From positions 1-38,431 of IMG/VR virus record IMGVR_UViG_3300047560_000465: 38,431 nt of DNA, one strand, 5' to 3'. This stretch comes from a virus. This document shows positions 5,311-12,918 of the stretch, piece after piece. Each line of letters starts with the position of its first letter. The first letter of the stretch is position 1. Below the pieces are notes generated by a model, which was not told the origin of the DNA, did no database searches, and was given only the letters and a program-made list of their open reading frames with translations. Both the position numbers and the translations under genes were made by a program.

Positions 5311-5475
5311 ATGAACATCCGACTAGAACAAAATGAAGTACAATTTATTCTTCAAGTGCTTGGAGAGCTGCCAACTAAGACAGGCGCTTTCATGCTCTTG
5401 AAGAACATTGAAGAGCAAGTAACTGCTCAATCTCCTGCGCAAGCAAACACCAACGGAGCTACGGCTCAATCCTAA
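5311..5475 (+). CDS. Small conserved-type phage protein, 54 aa
   Basis: It starts MNIRLEQNEVQFILQVLGEL, an amphipathic helix-rich N-terminus, and ends with a Gln/Ala/Asn-rich tail (AQSPAQANTNGATAQS). Short proteins with this MNVRLE-NEVQ-IL-start are common beside SSB genes in podoviruses, as I recall them; no function is known. It lies two bases after the previous stop, and AGGAACTTAACA precedes its ATG. Confidence 0.65.
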   Translation: MNIRLEQNEVQFILQVLGELPTKTGAFMLLKNIEEQVTAQSPAQANTNGATAQS

Positions 5476-5489
5476 AAGGAAAACAAGAC

Positions 5490-5906
5490 ATGTCAGATCT
5501 TAAGCCCGTTCGAATCACCGCTGAACTCTTTTGGAGCAAGTGGATGGCCGAATTCAACAAAGCCTTCAACACGGATAATGATCGTTACGAGTGTACTCTT
5601 GGCAACATCTCTGATGATGATGCAGCGAAGCTTACAAGCTTGGGTATCAAGGTGAAACACAAAGACTCAATGGGTAACTTCATTGTCGCTAAGAGCAAGT
5701 ACTTGTTTAAGCCCACAGGTGAAGACTTGAAAGAAGTTCCTATTGACTTGCTTGGTAATGGTTCTAAGTGTACTGCTATTGTGGGCTCGTACACTCACCG
5801 CATGTCTGCTAAGCACGGTAATGCTCCTTCGTTGAAAGCCATTACTGTCACCGAGATCAAGACTTACGTTCCAGAAGCAACCACTGCGGACGATGGCGCT
5901 CTCTAA
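5490..5906 (+). CDS. Single-stranded DNA-binding protein, podovirus type
   Basis: A 138-aa protein resembling the SSB/DUF2815-like proteins of aquatic phages. It has an N-terminal FWSKWMAEFN segment, a central GNFIVAKSKYLFKP strand region, and the conserved run LLGNGSKCTAIVGSY followed by LKAITVTEIKTYVPE. The C-terminus is acidic (TTADDGAL), as expected for an SSB that contacts polymerase and helicase. It has a good ribosome site (AAAAGGAAAAC) and sits between the polymerase and exonuclease genes. It should coat single strands at the fork. The assignment rests on pattern and context; there is no catalytic motif to test. Confidence 0.75.
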   Translation: MSDLKPVRITAELFWSKWMAEFNKAFNTDNDRYECTLGNISDDDAAKLTSLGIKVKHKDSMGNFIVAKSKYLFKPTGEDLKEVPIDLLGNGSKCTAIVGSYTHRMSAKHGNAPSLKAITVTEIKTYVPEATTADDGAL

Positions 5907-5913
5907 ATAAGTG

Positions 5914-5942
5914 TCGACTTTTCCTATTCTATATGCTACAAT
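5914..5942 (+). promoter_or_regulatory. Sigma70 promoter for the HNH gene at 5970
   Basis: TCGACT (5914..5919, 4/6), a 17-base spacer and TACAAT (5937..5942, 5/6), with a TGC just before the -10 that makes it an extended -10. The predicted start near 5949 gives a leader of about 20 bases. It lies in the 63-base gap after the SSB gene. Confidence 0.6.
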
Positions 5943-5969
5943 TTTAGTATTATTGTTTAGGAGAAGTTA

Positions 5970-6476
5970 ATGTTTACACGGTTAATTAAAGAACGAGACG
6001 AACAAGGTAAAATCTTAAGTTATGTTTTGCTGTTTGATGGGAAACCTATACCAGAAGGTAAAAAGTACTGTCCAGCTTGCGAACAACTTTTAGATGTAGC
6101 ATCCTTCACTAAAAAAGGCAATGCCTGTGGCCCTTGTGCTAACAAACGAGCAAAAGATTGGAGACTCGTTCATAGACAAGACCCAGAATTTGTTAAAAAG
6201 TTTAATAAGCGTGTTACTGACAAAAACAAAACTCGAAAGTTAGAAGCGATTGAGTTTATGGGTGGTGCTTGTCAAGACTGTGGTGGAAAGTTTCCTCCAA
6301 GTGTCTACGACTTTCATCATGTTGACATGGCGACAAAGGATAAGAACCCCTCTTACGTGTTAAAAGGTGGTTTAGAAAAAGCAAAGGAAGAACTAGCAAA
6401 ATGTGTTCTACTTTGTTCCAACTGTCATAGAATCAGGCATTTTGAAGGAGGTAAGAATGATACCGGCAAAACCTAA
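5970..6476 (+). CDS. HNH homing endonuclease with N-terminal zinc ribbon
   Basis: A 168-aa nuclease. The N-terminal zinc ribbon has C34/C37 (CPAC) and C53/C56 (CGPC). The nuclease core has CQDC at 101-104, FHHVD with H116/H117, and LCSNCH at 148-153, a complete His-Cys-bound HNH fold. AGGAGAAGTTA precedes the ATG, and it has its own promoter at 5914..5942. Its 3' end overlaps the start of the flap exonuclease gene by 20 bases and contains that gene's ribosome site. It is therefore a likely homing intruder at the exonuclease start, and may be tied to the odd stop codon there. Confidence 0.9.
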   Translation: MFTRLIKERDEQGKILSYVLLFDGKPIPEGKKYCPACEQLLDVASFTKKGNACGPCANKRAKDWRLVHRQDPEFVKKFNKRVTDKNKTRKLEAIEFMGGACQDCGGKFPPSVYDFHHVDMATKDKNPSYVLKGGLEKAKEELAKCVLLCSNCHRIRHFEGGKNDTGKT

Positions 6477-7173
6477 TTTAGCAATTATTGACGCTGATAT
6501 CCTTTAGCTGGTGTATCGTGTAGGTTTCGCTAGTGAAGACGTTGATGAAGCTATCTGTATGGCTCGCGTGACTCAGTTAGTACATGAGATAGTGTTTGAT
6601 AAATTGAAATGTGACGATTACAAAGCTTACATTACAGGTAAAACAAACTATCGAAATGAATTAGCAATCACTGAGCCTTACAAAGGGAATCGAAAGGGAG
6701 CTAAAAAGCCTGTTCATTATGAAGCTATTCGTCACCATCTCCAGCGCCTTGGTGCAGAACTGGTAGAGGGGCAAGAAGCTGATGATGCAGTGGCTATTGA
6801 GGCTACTAAAACAGGTGGATGGATTGTTTCCATTGACAAAGACCTAGATCAAGTTGCTGGTTGGCATTACAACTTTGTGAAGCATGAGGAATACTACATT
6901 ACTGAAGAACAAGGGCTTCGTAATCTATTTACTCAGGTGCTCACAGGAGATCGTATTGACAACATTATTGGCTTGCAGGGCATAGGGCCTAAGAAGGCTG
7001 AGAAGCTTTTGAAGGATTGTAAAACTGAAAGGGAATACTATGACGCTTGTATCAAAGCTTACGACGGTAATCAACTTCGTGTCGATGAAAATCTGCAACT
7101 TCTATGGTTAAGACGAGAACCCAACCAAGTGTGCCCTCTTCTTTCTTCCTCGTTGGGTGTCAATGGACAGTGA
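6457..7173 (+). CDS. 5'-3' exonuclease / flap endonuclease, interrupted by an in-frame amber codon
   Basis: A FEN-family nuclease that would remove primers and process 5' ends. The ATG at 6457 has an excellent ribosome site (GGAGGTAAGA). It begins MIPAKPNLAIIDADIL, including the metal-binding IDAD of the active site, then meets TAG at 6505..6507. It continues in the same frame LVYRVGFASED to 7173. The body is intact: EGQEADDA and SIDKDLDQV acidic motifs and the helix-hairpin-helix LQGIGPKKAEKLL. Starting at the GTG at 6511 would drop the catalytic aspartates and has no ribosome site. Removing the six bases CTTTAG gives the family-standard DADILVYRVGF. It may be read through, bypassed, or broken; see findings. 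Confidence 0.85.
6502..6510 (+). other. CTT TAG CTG: possible stop-codon hop site in the exonuclease gene
   Basis: A leucine codon, an amber stop and a second leucine codon. A peptidyl-tRNA-Leu moving from CTT to CTG would skip the stop and yield exactly the canonical DADILVYR sequence. Short hops of this kind between matching codons flanking a stop are known from E. coli experiments. Whether it happens here is untested. Confidence 0.4.
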
Positions 7174-7391
7174 AGTACGTTGAAGACTTGAGTGAATATG
7201 GTAAGTGTGATTGTTCCAACTTCACTGTGTATCTTCGCTCAGGTATGAACAAGAACTTCACTGAACAGACATTCTTCCATGAGCTAGTACATGCGATCAT
7301 GTTTGCAATGGGGCATACACAGCACGATGAGGTCTTTGTAGATGCCTTTGGTGCTTTGTTGCATCAATATGAAAAAACGAAATTTTTGTAG
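7104..7391 (+). CDS. Small zinc metallopeptidase (HExxH), ImmA/IrrE-like
   Basis: A protein of up to 95 aa with the zinc motif FHELVHAIMFAMGH (HELVH) and a downstream acidic residue (HDEVFVDAF) that could be the third ligand. Short HExxH proteins of this kind occur beside exonuclease and resolvase genes in many podoviruses; the substrate is not known. The start is uncertain: ATG at 7104, GTG at 7131 or GTG at 7170 (which overlaps the exonuclease stop as GTGA) are all in frame. None has a strong ribosome site. The VGCQWTVKYVED segment looks like part of the fold and favours one of the first two. The stop is TAG. Confidence 0.7.
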   Translation: MVKTRTQPSVPSSFFLVGCQWTVKYVEDLSEYGKCDCSNFTVYLRSGMNKNFTEQTFFHELVHAIMFAMGHTQHDEVFVDAFGALLHQYEKTKFL

Positions 7392-7404
7392 AAAGGACTA
7401 AGCT

Positions 7405-7608
7405 ATGAAAATGTATATTGATGAAGACGAGTGGTATCCTGTTCTTACCTTGCGCAAGAAACGATATACTTATCTAACTGATACAGCTGTTGAAGTAGAT
7501 CAAAATTTTTTGGACGAATATAAACGTATTATGGATGAGTTTGACGCTCTTCAAGATATTTTGAATAAACTTCCTAAAAGTAGAGTTGAAGCAACGGAAA
7601 AGTTCTAA
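7405..7608 (+). CDS. Hypothetical protein, 67 aa
   Basis: An acidic, probably helical protein (EYKRIMDEFDALQDILNKL) beginning MKMYIDEDEWYPVLTLRKK. GAAAGGACTAAGCT precedes the ATG. It ends on the start of the resolvase gene. No motif is recognised; it is probably co-translated with the resolvase. Confidence 0.65.
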   Translation: MKMYIDEDEWYPVLTLRKKRYTYLTDTAVEVDQNFLDEYKRIMDEFDALQDILNKLPKSRVEATEKF

Positions 7609-10543: not shown

Positions 10544-12454
10544 ATGACAAACACAAATAAGATGACTCCATACCAGACTTGGATAGCAAAATCGAGATAC
10601 AGCCGCTACTTGGACGATAAAAGTCGTCGTGAGCACTGGCCTGAGACAGTTAAGCGTTACTTTGATTTTATGGAGAAACAGCTCAATGACAAGAATAGCT
10701 ATGTCTTGACTGGTGAGCTTCGTAATCGTCTTGAAACTGCTGTATTAAACTTGGATGTAATGCCTTCCATGCGTAGTTTGATGACTGCTGGTGATGCTCT
10801 TGATCGTCAGAACGTAGCTGGCTACAACTGTTCATACTTGCCTATTGATGATCCTAAAGCCTTTGATGAGGCTATGTATATCCTCTTGTGTGGTACAGGT
10901 GTTGGTTTCTCAGTGGAGCAAAAGTATGTCAACCGTCTTCCAGACATTCCAGAAAAGCTGTATGAGTCTAATACTGTGGTTCACGTTAAAGACTCCAAAG
11001 AAGGATGGGCTAAGGCACTACGACAGGTTATGGCCCTCCTATGGGCAGGTGAAGTACCTAAATGGGATGTTTCGGCTGTGCGGGCTGCGGGAACTCGACT
11101 TAAAACGTTTGGGGGCCGTGCGAGTGGCCCTGATCCTTTGGTCGAACTATTCAAATATGTTGTGGGTAAATTCAAAGGTGCTCAAGGACGTAAGCTCTTT
11201 TCAATCGAAGCGCATGATATCCTGTGTAAAATCGGGGAAGTCGTTGTGGTTGGAGGTGTTCGCCGTTCCGCTATGATATCTTTGTCTGACCTTGGTGATG
11301 ATCGTATGGCTCACGCTAAAGCAGGAAACTGGTGGGACGGTAATGGTCAGCGAGCCCTGGCTAACAACTCAGCAGTGTACGATGTCAAGCCCGATGTGGG
11401 TCAATTTATGCGTGAATGGAGCAATATTTATGAAAGCCACTCAGGGGAACGTGGGATTTTTAACCGCTATGCTTCGGAAGATCAGGCATCAAAGAATGGC
11501 CGCCGTGTATTGGGTAAAGAATGGGGTACTAACCCTTGTTCTGAAATTATTCTCCGGCCTTACCAATTCTGTAACCTCTCTTCAGTTATTGTTCGTGCGG
11601 GGGATACATTGGAGTCTCTTAAAGAAAAAGTCACTATTGCGACAATCTTGGGAACCTTCCAATCGACCTTGACTAACTTCCCCTATCTTCGTAAAGTATG
11701 GCAAACTAACACTGAAGAGGAGCGTCTACTGGGTGTGTCGATGACAGGCATCTTGGACAATCCTTTGTTGAACAATGCCTACGATGCTGACTTGCCTAAA
11801 CGACTTGAGGAACTGAAGAATGTTGCTGTGGATACTAACAAGCATCTTGCTGCTGAATTGGGCATCAGTGCTTCTGCTGCGATCACCTGTGTCAAGCCTG
11901 AGGGAACTGTTAGTCAGCTCACTGGTACTGCTAGCGGCATTCATCCTCAACACAGTGCTTATTTCATTCGTCGTGTGCGCTCTGATTCCAAAGATCCGCT
12001 TACCCAGTTTCTAAAGGACTCAGGATTTCCTTGGGAGCCTTGTGTGATGAAGCCTGAATCTACTGTGATTTTTAGCTTTCCTATGAAGGTTGAAAAAGGT
12101 GCTAAGCTTCGTGAAGATTTGTCAGCTATTGAACACTTGGATTTGTGGTTGACATTTCAGCGTCATTGGACAGAACACAAACCTTCTGTTACAATTTCTG
12201 TTAATGAACACGAATGGCCTAAAGTAGGCGCCTGGGTGTGGGAAAAGTTTGACGAGATTACAGGCGTATCTTTCCTGCCCCTAGACGGGGGAAGCTACCG
12301 CCAAGCGCCTTATGAGGCCTGTACCAAAGAGCAGTATGAGGAAGCTTTGGCTAATACTCCTACGACTATCGATTGGGAAGCCATGACGGAAAACACAGAT
12401 AATGTGGAAGGCGCTCAAATGTTGAGTTGTACAGCAGGAAATTGTGAAATATGA
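10544..12454 (+). CDS. Class II (adenosylcobalamin-dependent) ribonucleotide reductase, monomeric
   Basis: A 636-aa enzyme of the RTPR type that reduces ribonucleotides with a B12-generated thiyl radical. The start at 10544 follows GAAAGAAGAA; an in-frame TTG lies 12 bases upstream. Active-site cysteines align with those of the Lactobacillus enzyme: C96 (GYNCSYLP), C332 in TNPCSEI for the thiyl radical, and C343 eleven residues later (FCNLSS), the partner of C96. The C-terminal redox pair is C629/C634 in SCTAGNC. The central GTGVGFSV motif is present. It depends on host cobalamin and on a dithiol donor, plausibly the glutaredoxin at 12915. It is complete, with no intein. Its stop overlaps an HNH start. 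Confidence 0.96.
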   Translation: MTNTNKMTPYQTWIAKSRYSRYLDDKSRREHWPETVKRYFDFMEKQLNDKNSYVLTGELRNRLETAVLNLDVMPSMRSLMTAGDALDRQNVAGYNCSYLPIDDPKAFDEAMYILLCGTGVGFSVEQKYVNRLPDIPEKLYESNTVVHVKDSKEGWAKALRQVMALLWAGEVPKWDVSAVRAAGTRLKTFGGRASGPDPLVELFKYVVGKFKGAQGRKLFSIEAHDILCKIGEVVVVGGVRRSAMISLSDLGDDRMAHAKAGNWWDGNGQRALANNSAVYDVKPDVGQFMREWSNIYESHSGERGIFNRYASEDQASKNGRRVLGKEWGTNPCSEIILRPYQFCNLSSVIVRAGDTLESLKEKVTIATILGTFQSTLTNFPYLRKVWQTNTEEERLLGVSMTGILDNPLLNNAYDADLPKRLEELKNVAVDTNKHLAAELGISASAAITCVKPEGTVSQLTGTASGIHPQHSAYFIRRVRSDSKDPLTQFLKDSGFPWEPCVMKPESTVIFSFPMKVEKGAKLREDLSAIEHLDLWLTFQRHWTEHKPSVTISVNEHEWPKVGAWVWEKFDEITGVSFLPLDGGSYRQAPYEACTKEQYEEALANTPTTIDWEAMTENTDNVEGAQMLSCTAGNCEI

Positions 12455-12918
12455 AAAAATGCAGTCGTTGTGATACCGTAAAATCCCTTGAGTTCTTTCC
12501 TAAAAAGAAAGAAAACAAAGACGGGTATCATAGCCACTGCAAACAATGTCGATCTGGTTATGATAGGTCTCGTTATGATGCTAAGAAGCGTAGCGAGGCT
12601 TATCATTCCAATTTAGAGCTAGAACGACAAGCACGTAGAGAATACTACAGCGATAACAAAGCAGATTATTATGTTAGGAAAGCAAAGCGAAGGGCTGAGT
12701 TGTTAAACCGAACTCCCGCATGGCTTATGGAGTATGATTTTCTTCGTATCAAATGTATTTATTCTGTATGTAGTATGCTTAATAAAGAAGGAACAGGGCC
12801 TTATGAAGTCGATCACATTATTCCTTTACAAGGTAAAAATGTTAGCGGTTTACATGTACCTTGGAATCTAAGAATCGTATCTAGATTTGAGAATCGTTCG
12901 AAAGGAAACAAATATTGA
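12451..12918 (+). CDS. HNH homing endonuclease with N-terminal zinc ribbon
   Basis: A 155-aa nuclease. The N-terminal zinc ribbon CSRC ... CKQC (about residues 4-34) is followed by a very basic linker (QARREYYSDN, RKAKRRAELL) and the HNH core VDHIIPLQGKNVSGLHVPWN followed by LRIVSRFENRSKGNK. It sits between the ribonucleotide reductase and its likely reductant glutaredoxin, overlapping both by four bases (ATGA at the start, TTGA at the end). It is therefore inserted seamlessly into a functional pair. The shared N-terminal plan with the gene at 5970 suggests the same endonuclease class. Confidence 0.9.
   Translation: MKKCSRCDTVKSLEFFPKKKENKDGYHSHCKQCRSGYDRSRYDAKKRSEAYHSNLELERQARREYYSDNKADYYVRKAKRRAELLNRTPAWLMEYDFLRIKCIYSVCSMLNKEGTGPYEVDHIIPLQGKNVSGLHVPWNLRIVSRFENRSKGNKY

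Follow-up and report, generated by a model that had tools for sequence, protein, structure and literature searches.

Small stop-codon inserts beside HNH genes at the active-site codon of phage FEN-type exonucleases: probable homing cassettes with proposed minimal ribosomal stop-hops

Weiss et al. (1987), whose title names +5 and +6 ribosomal hops, reportedly obtained them with synthetic sequences. Those hops belong to laboratory constructs, whereas the sites in phage exonuclease genes described here are natural, conserved and tied to a mobile element. In gene 60 of phage T4 a stop directly follows the take-off codon and the peptidyl-tRNA re-pairs at a downstream codon (PMC5009743). Its insert, which interrupts an essential-type replication gene next to the HNH homing gene mobA, has been proposed to protect against the mobA nuclease (PMC5009743, PMC3014915, PMC11194080). 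The exonuclease loci are alike in their adjacent HNH gene, in the type of gene interrupted and in the position of the stop, and re-pairing at a downstream codon is proposed for them as well. They differ in that the gap is 50 nt in T4 and 5 to 8 nt here (in frame for the +6 class), in that the HNH gene lies beside the start codon of the target gene itself, and in that gene 60 has been described as a single case while the exonuclease inserts recur in many phages and in a different gene. Small inserts in coding genes are also tolerated through bypassing in the mitochondria of Magnusiomyces (PMC5009743), but there 81 positions are affected, the mitochondrial system is a relaxed one and the codon matches are imperfect, in contrast to one fixed site accompanied by an HNH gene. 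The RF2 gene (prfB), with CUU UGA C, likewise places a Leu CUU codon in the P site and a stop in the A site; there the outcome is autoregulation through +1 slippage, and a +1 shift fails for the +6 and +5 exonuclease classes. A 2016 review of recoding stated that in-frame stop hopping had been shown with synthetic constructs and that natural occurrences were unknown (PMC5009743), and we found no later report of natural in-frame stop hopping in the literature searched, which lay mostly outside subscription journals.

The window, that is, the whole stretch of 38,431 nt analyzed here (IMG/VR record IMGVR_UViG_3300047560_000465, a virus of bacteria), contains an HNH gene that runs into the start of an exonuclease gene (Table 1). 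The HNH protein has zinc-ribbon-like CxxC pairs and an intact HNH motif (YDFHHVD...LCSNCHRIRH), and its last codons, FEGG, embed the Shine-Dalgarno sequence of the exonuclease; the GGAGG is kept in every CTTTAG locus inspected. The preliminary description had the HNH gene both overlapping the exonuclease start and carrying a promoter of its own; the overlap holds, and the promoter is a weak candidate. The exonuclease reads GAC GCT GAT ATC CTT TAG CTG GTG TAT CGT, with the TAG at 6505-6507, and both halves match one PHROG exonuclease family. Any of the equivalent six-base deletions yields DADILVYRVGF. The earlier observations of a start at 6457 with a ribosome site, an IDAD motif, a TAG between two Leu codons, a family-standard product after removal of six bases and an intact remainder were all confirmed. 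A group I or II intron or an intein was rejected, since positions 5400-7600 of the window gave no Rfam match and the insert measures six bases.

Table 1. Features of the HNH-exonuclease locus in the window
Feature	Coordinates	Strand	Evidence and remarks
Candidate sigma-70-like promoter, HNH gene	5914..5942	+	TCGACT-17-TACAAT; consensus scan, 9/12 matches, TG before -10; weak evidence
HNH endonuclease gene, 168 aa	5970..6476	+	ORF; PHROG 2255, E 1.2e-29; homologues beside stop-bearing exonucleases
Exonuclease Shine-Dalgarno AAGGAGGT	6445..6452	+	Sequence; upstream of ATG 6457
Exonuclease 5' coding segment MIPAKPNLAIIDADIL	6457..6504	+	First catalytic Asp motif IDAD; 16 codons before TAG
Insert CTTTAG (take-off codon CTT + stop TAG)	6502..6507	+	Missing in HNH-less sisters; found in 24 other contigs
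Proposed landing codon CTG, native Leu position	6508..6510	+	CTN always in CTTTAG loci
Remaining exonuclease frame (5'-3' exonuclease/FEN family)	6508..7173	+	221 open codons + TGA 7171; PHROG 107 exonuclease, E 7e-59

A search for relatives with the window exonuclease returned 407 viral stretches, of which 80 were kept, and nearly all of these read IDxD-xxx-YR without an insert. One of them (L057), whose protein is 79% identical to that of the window, carries the identical GATATCCTTTAGCTGGT. When IMG/VR was scanned for any stop at the insert codon, 16 exonuclease contigs were recovered, all 16 with CTT TAG CTN; pattern scans followed by alignment-based scans of the exonuclease and the HNH protein raised the total to 25 viral contigs, including the window, with CTT-TAG-CTN at the same active-site codon. 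The stop is TAG and the take-off codon CTT in 25/25, and the landing codon is CTG in 7, CTT in 11, CTA in 6 and CTC in 1; the 163 insert-free relatives have CTN at this position in 24.5% of cases, versus all CTTTAG loci. The viral scans revealed no six-base insert in which a sense codon replaces the stop, though a single mutation would suffice. In each of the 24 CTTTAG contigs with upstream DNA, an HNH frame extends into the start of the exonuclease; the 25th (L374) begins 149 bases upstream, and its HNH status falls outside this count. A match in Limnohabitans phage DC31 was discarded as an HNH gene with no exonuclease nearby, and 116 stretches of bacterial genomes matching a similar but too loose pattern included no exonuclease.

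We used a set of 181 exonucleases to build a tree, of which 18 had both insert and HNH gene, 154 had neither and 9 had a related HNH gene without the insert. An HNH gene thus lies directly upstream in 18/18 genes with the insert and in 9/163 without it (Fisher 2e-18, on the tree set with near-copies counted), and the insert requires seven gains or losses on the tree, seven of which are forced by well-supported branches. L106 and L157 have nearly identical flanks, between which L106 has the HNH gene and exactly CTTTAG in addition; L189 and L181 again differ by the HNH gene and CTTTAG (GATTTC[CTTTAG]CTAGTT versus GACTTT CTAGTT). In both pairs the landing codon is the native Leu codon of the sister and the hexamer is constant. 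The 3' border of the copied stretch falls exactly between CTTTAG and CTN, and in a clade of eight sequences the roughly 180 bases before the landing codon hardly vary, variation restarting at the third base of that codon. Where HNH-only alleles were compared they shared this border, and mostly silent changes stood in place of the insert. These sister differences and the sharp border bear the marks of homing with co-conversion, in which the HNH enzyme would cleave the empty site, and the locus has what is expected of a free-standing HNH homing cassette: an intact adjacent HNH gene, a patchy distribution and near-identical empty sites. In the L107-L130 clade, nucleotide identity is nearly complete over the HNH 3' end and the exonuclease start, with divergence on both sides; its conserved stretch of about 180 bases may reflect either recent conversion or constraint at the nucleotide level.

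The preliminary description had tied the insert to the HNH gene. This stands for the 18 carriers and the sister pairs, but 9 of the 27 HNH-preceded YR-type exonucleases have related, diverged HNH genes and no insert, a finding that the description itself had named as counting against its idea, so the insert is not obligatory for every HNH gene of the family, and a strictly obligatory link was rejected. In two isolates, Escherichia phage Bas93 (L382) and Salmonella phage PKM.Hi.22.6 (L385), an intact, insert-free exonuclease follows directly on a related HNH gene; therefore some alleles must avoid self-cutting in another way. The link between HNH gene and insert is strong, not absolute. Shared ancestry of the cassettes may inflate the constancy of CTTTAG, the bias toward CTN and the association tests, and the insert-linked HNH genes may or may not have had a single origin.

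Other small inserts occupy the same site. L275 and PQ867848.1 have CTG-TGA-CTA (+6), and L305 and L323 have GAT-TA-GAT (+5), where the landing codon overlaps the UAG. Vibrio phage Phriendly (MN062185.1), a cultured isolate on Vibrio natriegens, reads GAC ATT CTT TGAC CTA CGT TAT (+7), and three sister isolates with no HNH gene, the Vibrio phages IME271, VP506 and KIT05, lack the seven bases and read GAC ATC, CTA or TTA, CGT TAT. The stop immediately follows the take-off codon in all +5, +6, +7 and +8 loci, and for the pairs CTT/CTN, CTG/CTA, GAT/GAT and CTT/CTA re-pairing at the landing codon is possible and would give a product of exactly the family length. L348 (+8, ATT/GTC) and L304 (+5, GAC/GTC, with an AP2-HNH gene), the latter with a mismatched landing codon, fit this rule imperfectly. 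Five further loci (L278, L280, L289, L324 and L329) have +1 or +4 disruptions at the same codon, with an HNH gene upstream in four; two of them look like +1 shift sites (CTT C in L278, TTT C in L324), the other three follow no simple rule, and all five fit a stop-hop poorly. In L329 and L304 the first residues of the nuclease ORF are left over from the exonuclease start (MQPLIDG..., PLIDADVLR...), and that start is present afresh after the nuclease, which indicates that the homing gene went into the exonuclease gene itself and rebuilt its 5' end. Taking the loci together, we lean toward the view that several HNH genes, and one AP2-HNH gene, have independently colonized the active-site codon of FEN exonucleases, each protecting its site with an insert of 5 to 8 nt that natural minimal stop-hops make harmless, which would make this class of mobile mini-bypass elements widespread.

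The interrupted exonucleases are under purifying selection. Between insert-bearing genes, dN/dS downstream of the stop is 0.10-0.13 at dS 0.5-1.0, and among relatives the exonuclease dN/dS is 0.07-0.13; upstream of the stop the IDxD amino acids are retained although the codons for them differ. The spacing from DxD to Tyr is three residues in 162/162 insert-free genes, and the insert-free sister L157 aligns with Taq polymerase without gaps over VDGHHLAYR, at the insert site. The selection and the retained IDxD motif point to a gene that works despite its stop.

As the best explanation, and one we hold with reasonable confidence, the exonucleases would be targets of HNH homing cassettes whose protective micro-inserts are tolerated through minimal ribosomal stop-hops. 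Together the HNH gene and CTTTAG would make up a single mobile cassette, with the codons immediately downstream of the IDxD motif in phage FEN-type exonuclease genes as its homing site. The insert would break the HNH target and thereby leave the carrier's own gene uncut. With the stop in the A site, the peptidyl-tRNA-Leu would leave CTT and re-pair six bases downstream on the native CTN, so that the nine bases CTT TAG CTG give one Leu and the family-standard product DADI-L-VYR; because of this hop the exonuclease would stay functional. The principle would extend to related cassettes whose small inserts differ (+5, +6, +7 and possibly +8). Three observations argue for hopping: the fixed three-residue spacing, to which readthrough would add two residues, the lack of any sense codon in place of the stop within inserts, and the single take-off, stop and landing rule obeyed by inserts of different length. 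Folding of the site gave no excess structure (z -0.6 to 1.1 in eight folds) and no stem-loop, and 10 to 19 codons precede the stop across loci, compared with a nascent peptide of 46 aa in T4 gene 60; for these reasons we propose a minimal stop-hop, not a stimulated bypass of the T4 kind. CTTTAG may be so constant partly because a single ancestral cassette was copied, the landing CTN could belong to the HNH target instead of being a requirement of hopping, and the efficiency of an unstimulated hop may be low. The Leu-to-Leu hop, the HNH linkage and the analogy with T4 gene 60/mobA suggested in the preliminary description gain support from the linked gains, the sisters, selection and the variants, all of them comparisons of sequences.

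Programmed or suppressor-mediated readthrough, in which a tRNA reads the UAG and X-Leu is added after the catalytic Asp motif, seems unlikely. The frame is open on both sides of the TAG, none of the 25 CTT-TAG cases has a stop other than UAG and host suppressors are possible, but the inserts are in frame for the +6 class only, and readthrough does not restore the frame in the +5 and +7 variants found at this site. No amber-suppressor tRNA with a CUA anticodon was found in 12 carrier contigs, some of them fragments; the tRNAs detected among the carrier phages were for Leu (UAA), Thr and Trp only. Two extra residues would also break the fixed spacing, and the flanking Leu codons and the lack of sense-codon inserts would be left unexplained. 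Reassignment of the code was rejected, as TAG is the normal terminator of 5/55 ORFs in the window and ends many of the stop-bearing exonucleases, and the amber suppression earlier listed as an alternative is accordingly improbable. The tRNA-Leu (UAA) is found in L215, L216, L218, L219 and L221, and the window and several other carriers do not have it.

It is very doubtful that the homing element has inactivated the exonuclease, or that reinitiation downstream gives an N-terminally truncated protein. There is a stop in the 0 frame and, in the window, a GTG (6511) three bases past the TAG, but this codon is GTT, GTC or ACT in relatives, and the truncated protein would be without the catalytic Asp motif. 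Inactivation is at odds with a dN/dS of about 0.1 over many insert-bearing genes, and neither version explains why IDxD is kept before the stop despite codon variation. About as doubtful is the idea that each insert is decoded by an ordinary frameshift or readthrough of its own, with two extra residues tolerated. The CTT TGA C of Phriendly is indeed the +1 shift site of RF2 (the CUU_U site in PMC5009743), and the +1 cases L278 and L324 look similar, but a separate mechanism would be needed for each insert length, with two extra active-site residues in +5, +6 and +7, while hopping covers these three by one rule and with exact length. Finally, an error of sequencing or assembly, or a nonsense mutation private to a single phage, also listed earlier, is excluded, because many separate metagenomes have yielded contigs with the insert and an isolate genome has a related one.

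If this reading is true, in-frame stop hopping would for the first time be known from nature. The loci supply natural candidates by the dozen whose take-off and landing codons are defined, along with naturally insert-free controls and a phage in culture (Phriendly). With them one can test how little sequence suffices for a ribosome to hop over a stop, and whether homing elements generally render their protective inserts harmless through bypassing or T4 is an oddity.

Gene callers miss or truncate such exonucleases. The annotation of MN062185.1 (L503, 21142-22121) begins the exonuclease at an internal start, labels it only as a hypothetical protein and truncates the HNH gene, and in PQ867848.1 (L383) the exonuclease is mis-started in the same way. 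The window has a further HNH endonuclease gene between the primase/helicase and the DNA polymerase (2354-2941), with no scar in the polymerase beside it, the start of which reads intact, and an endonuclease VII-like gene after the ribonucleotide reductase (12451-12918).
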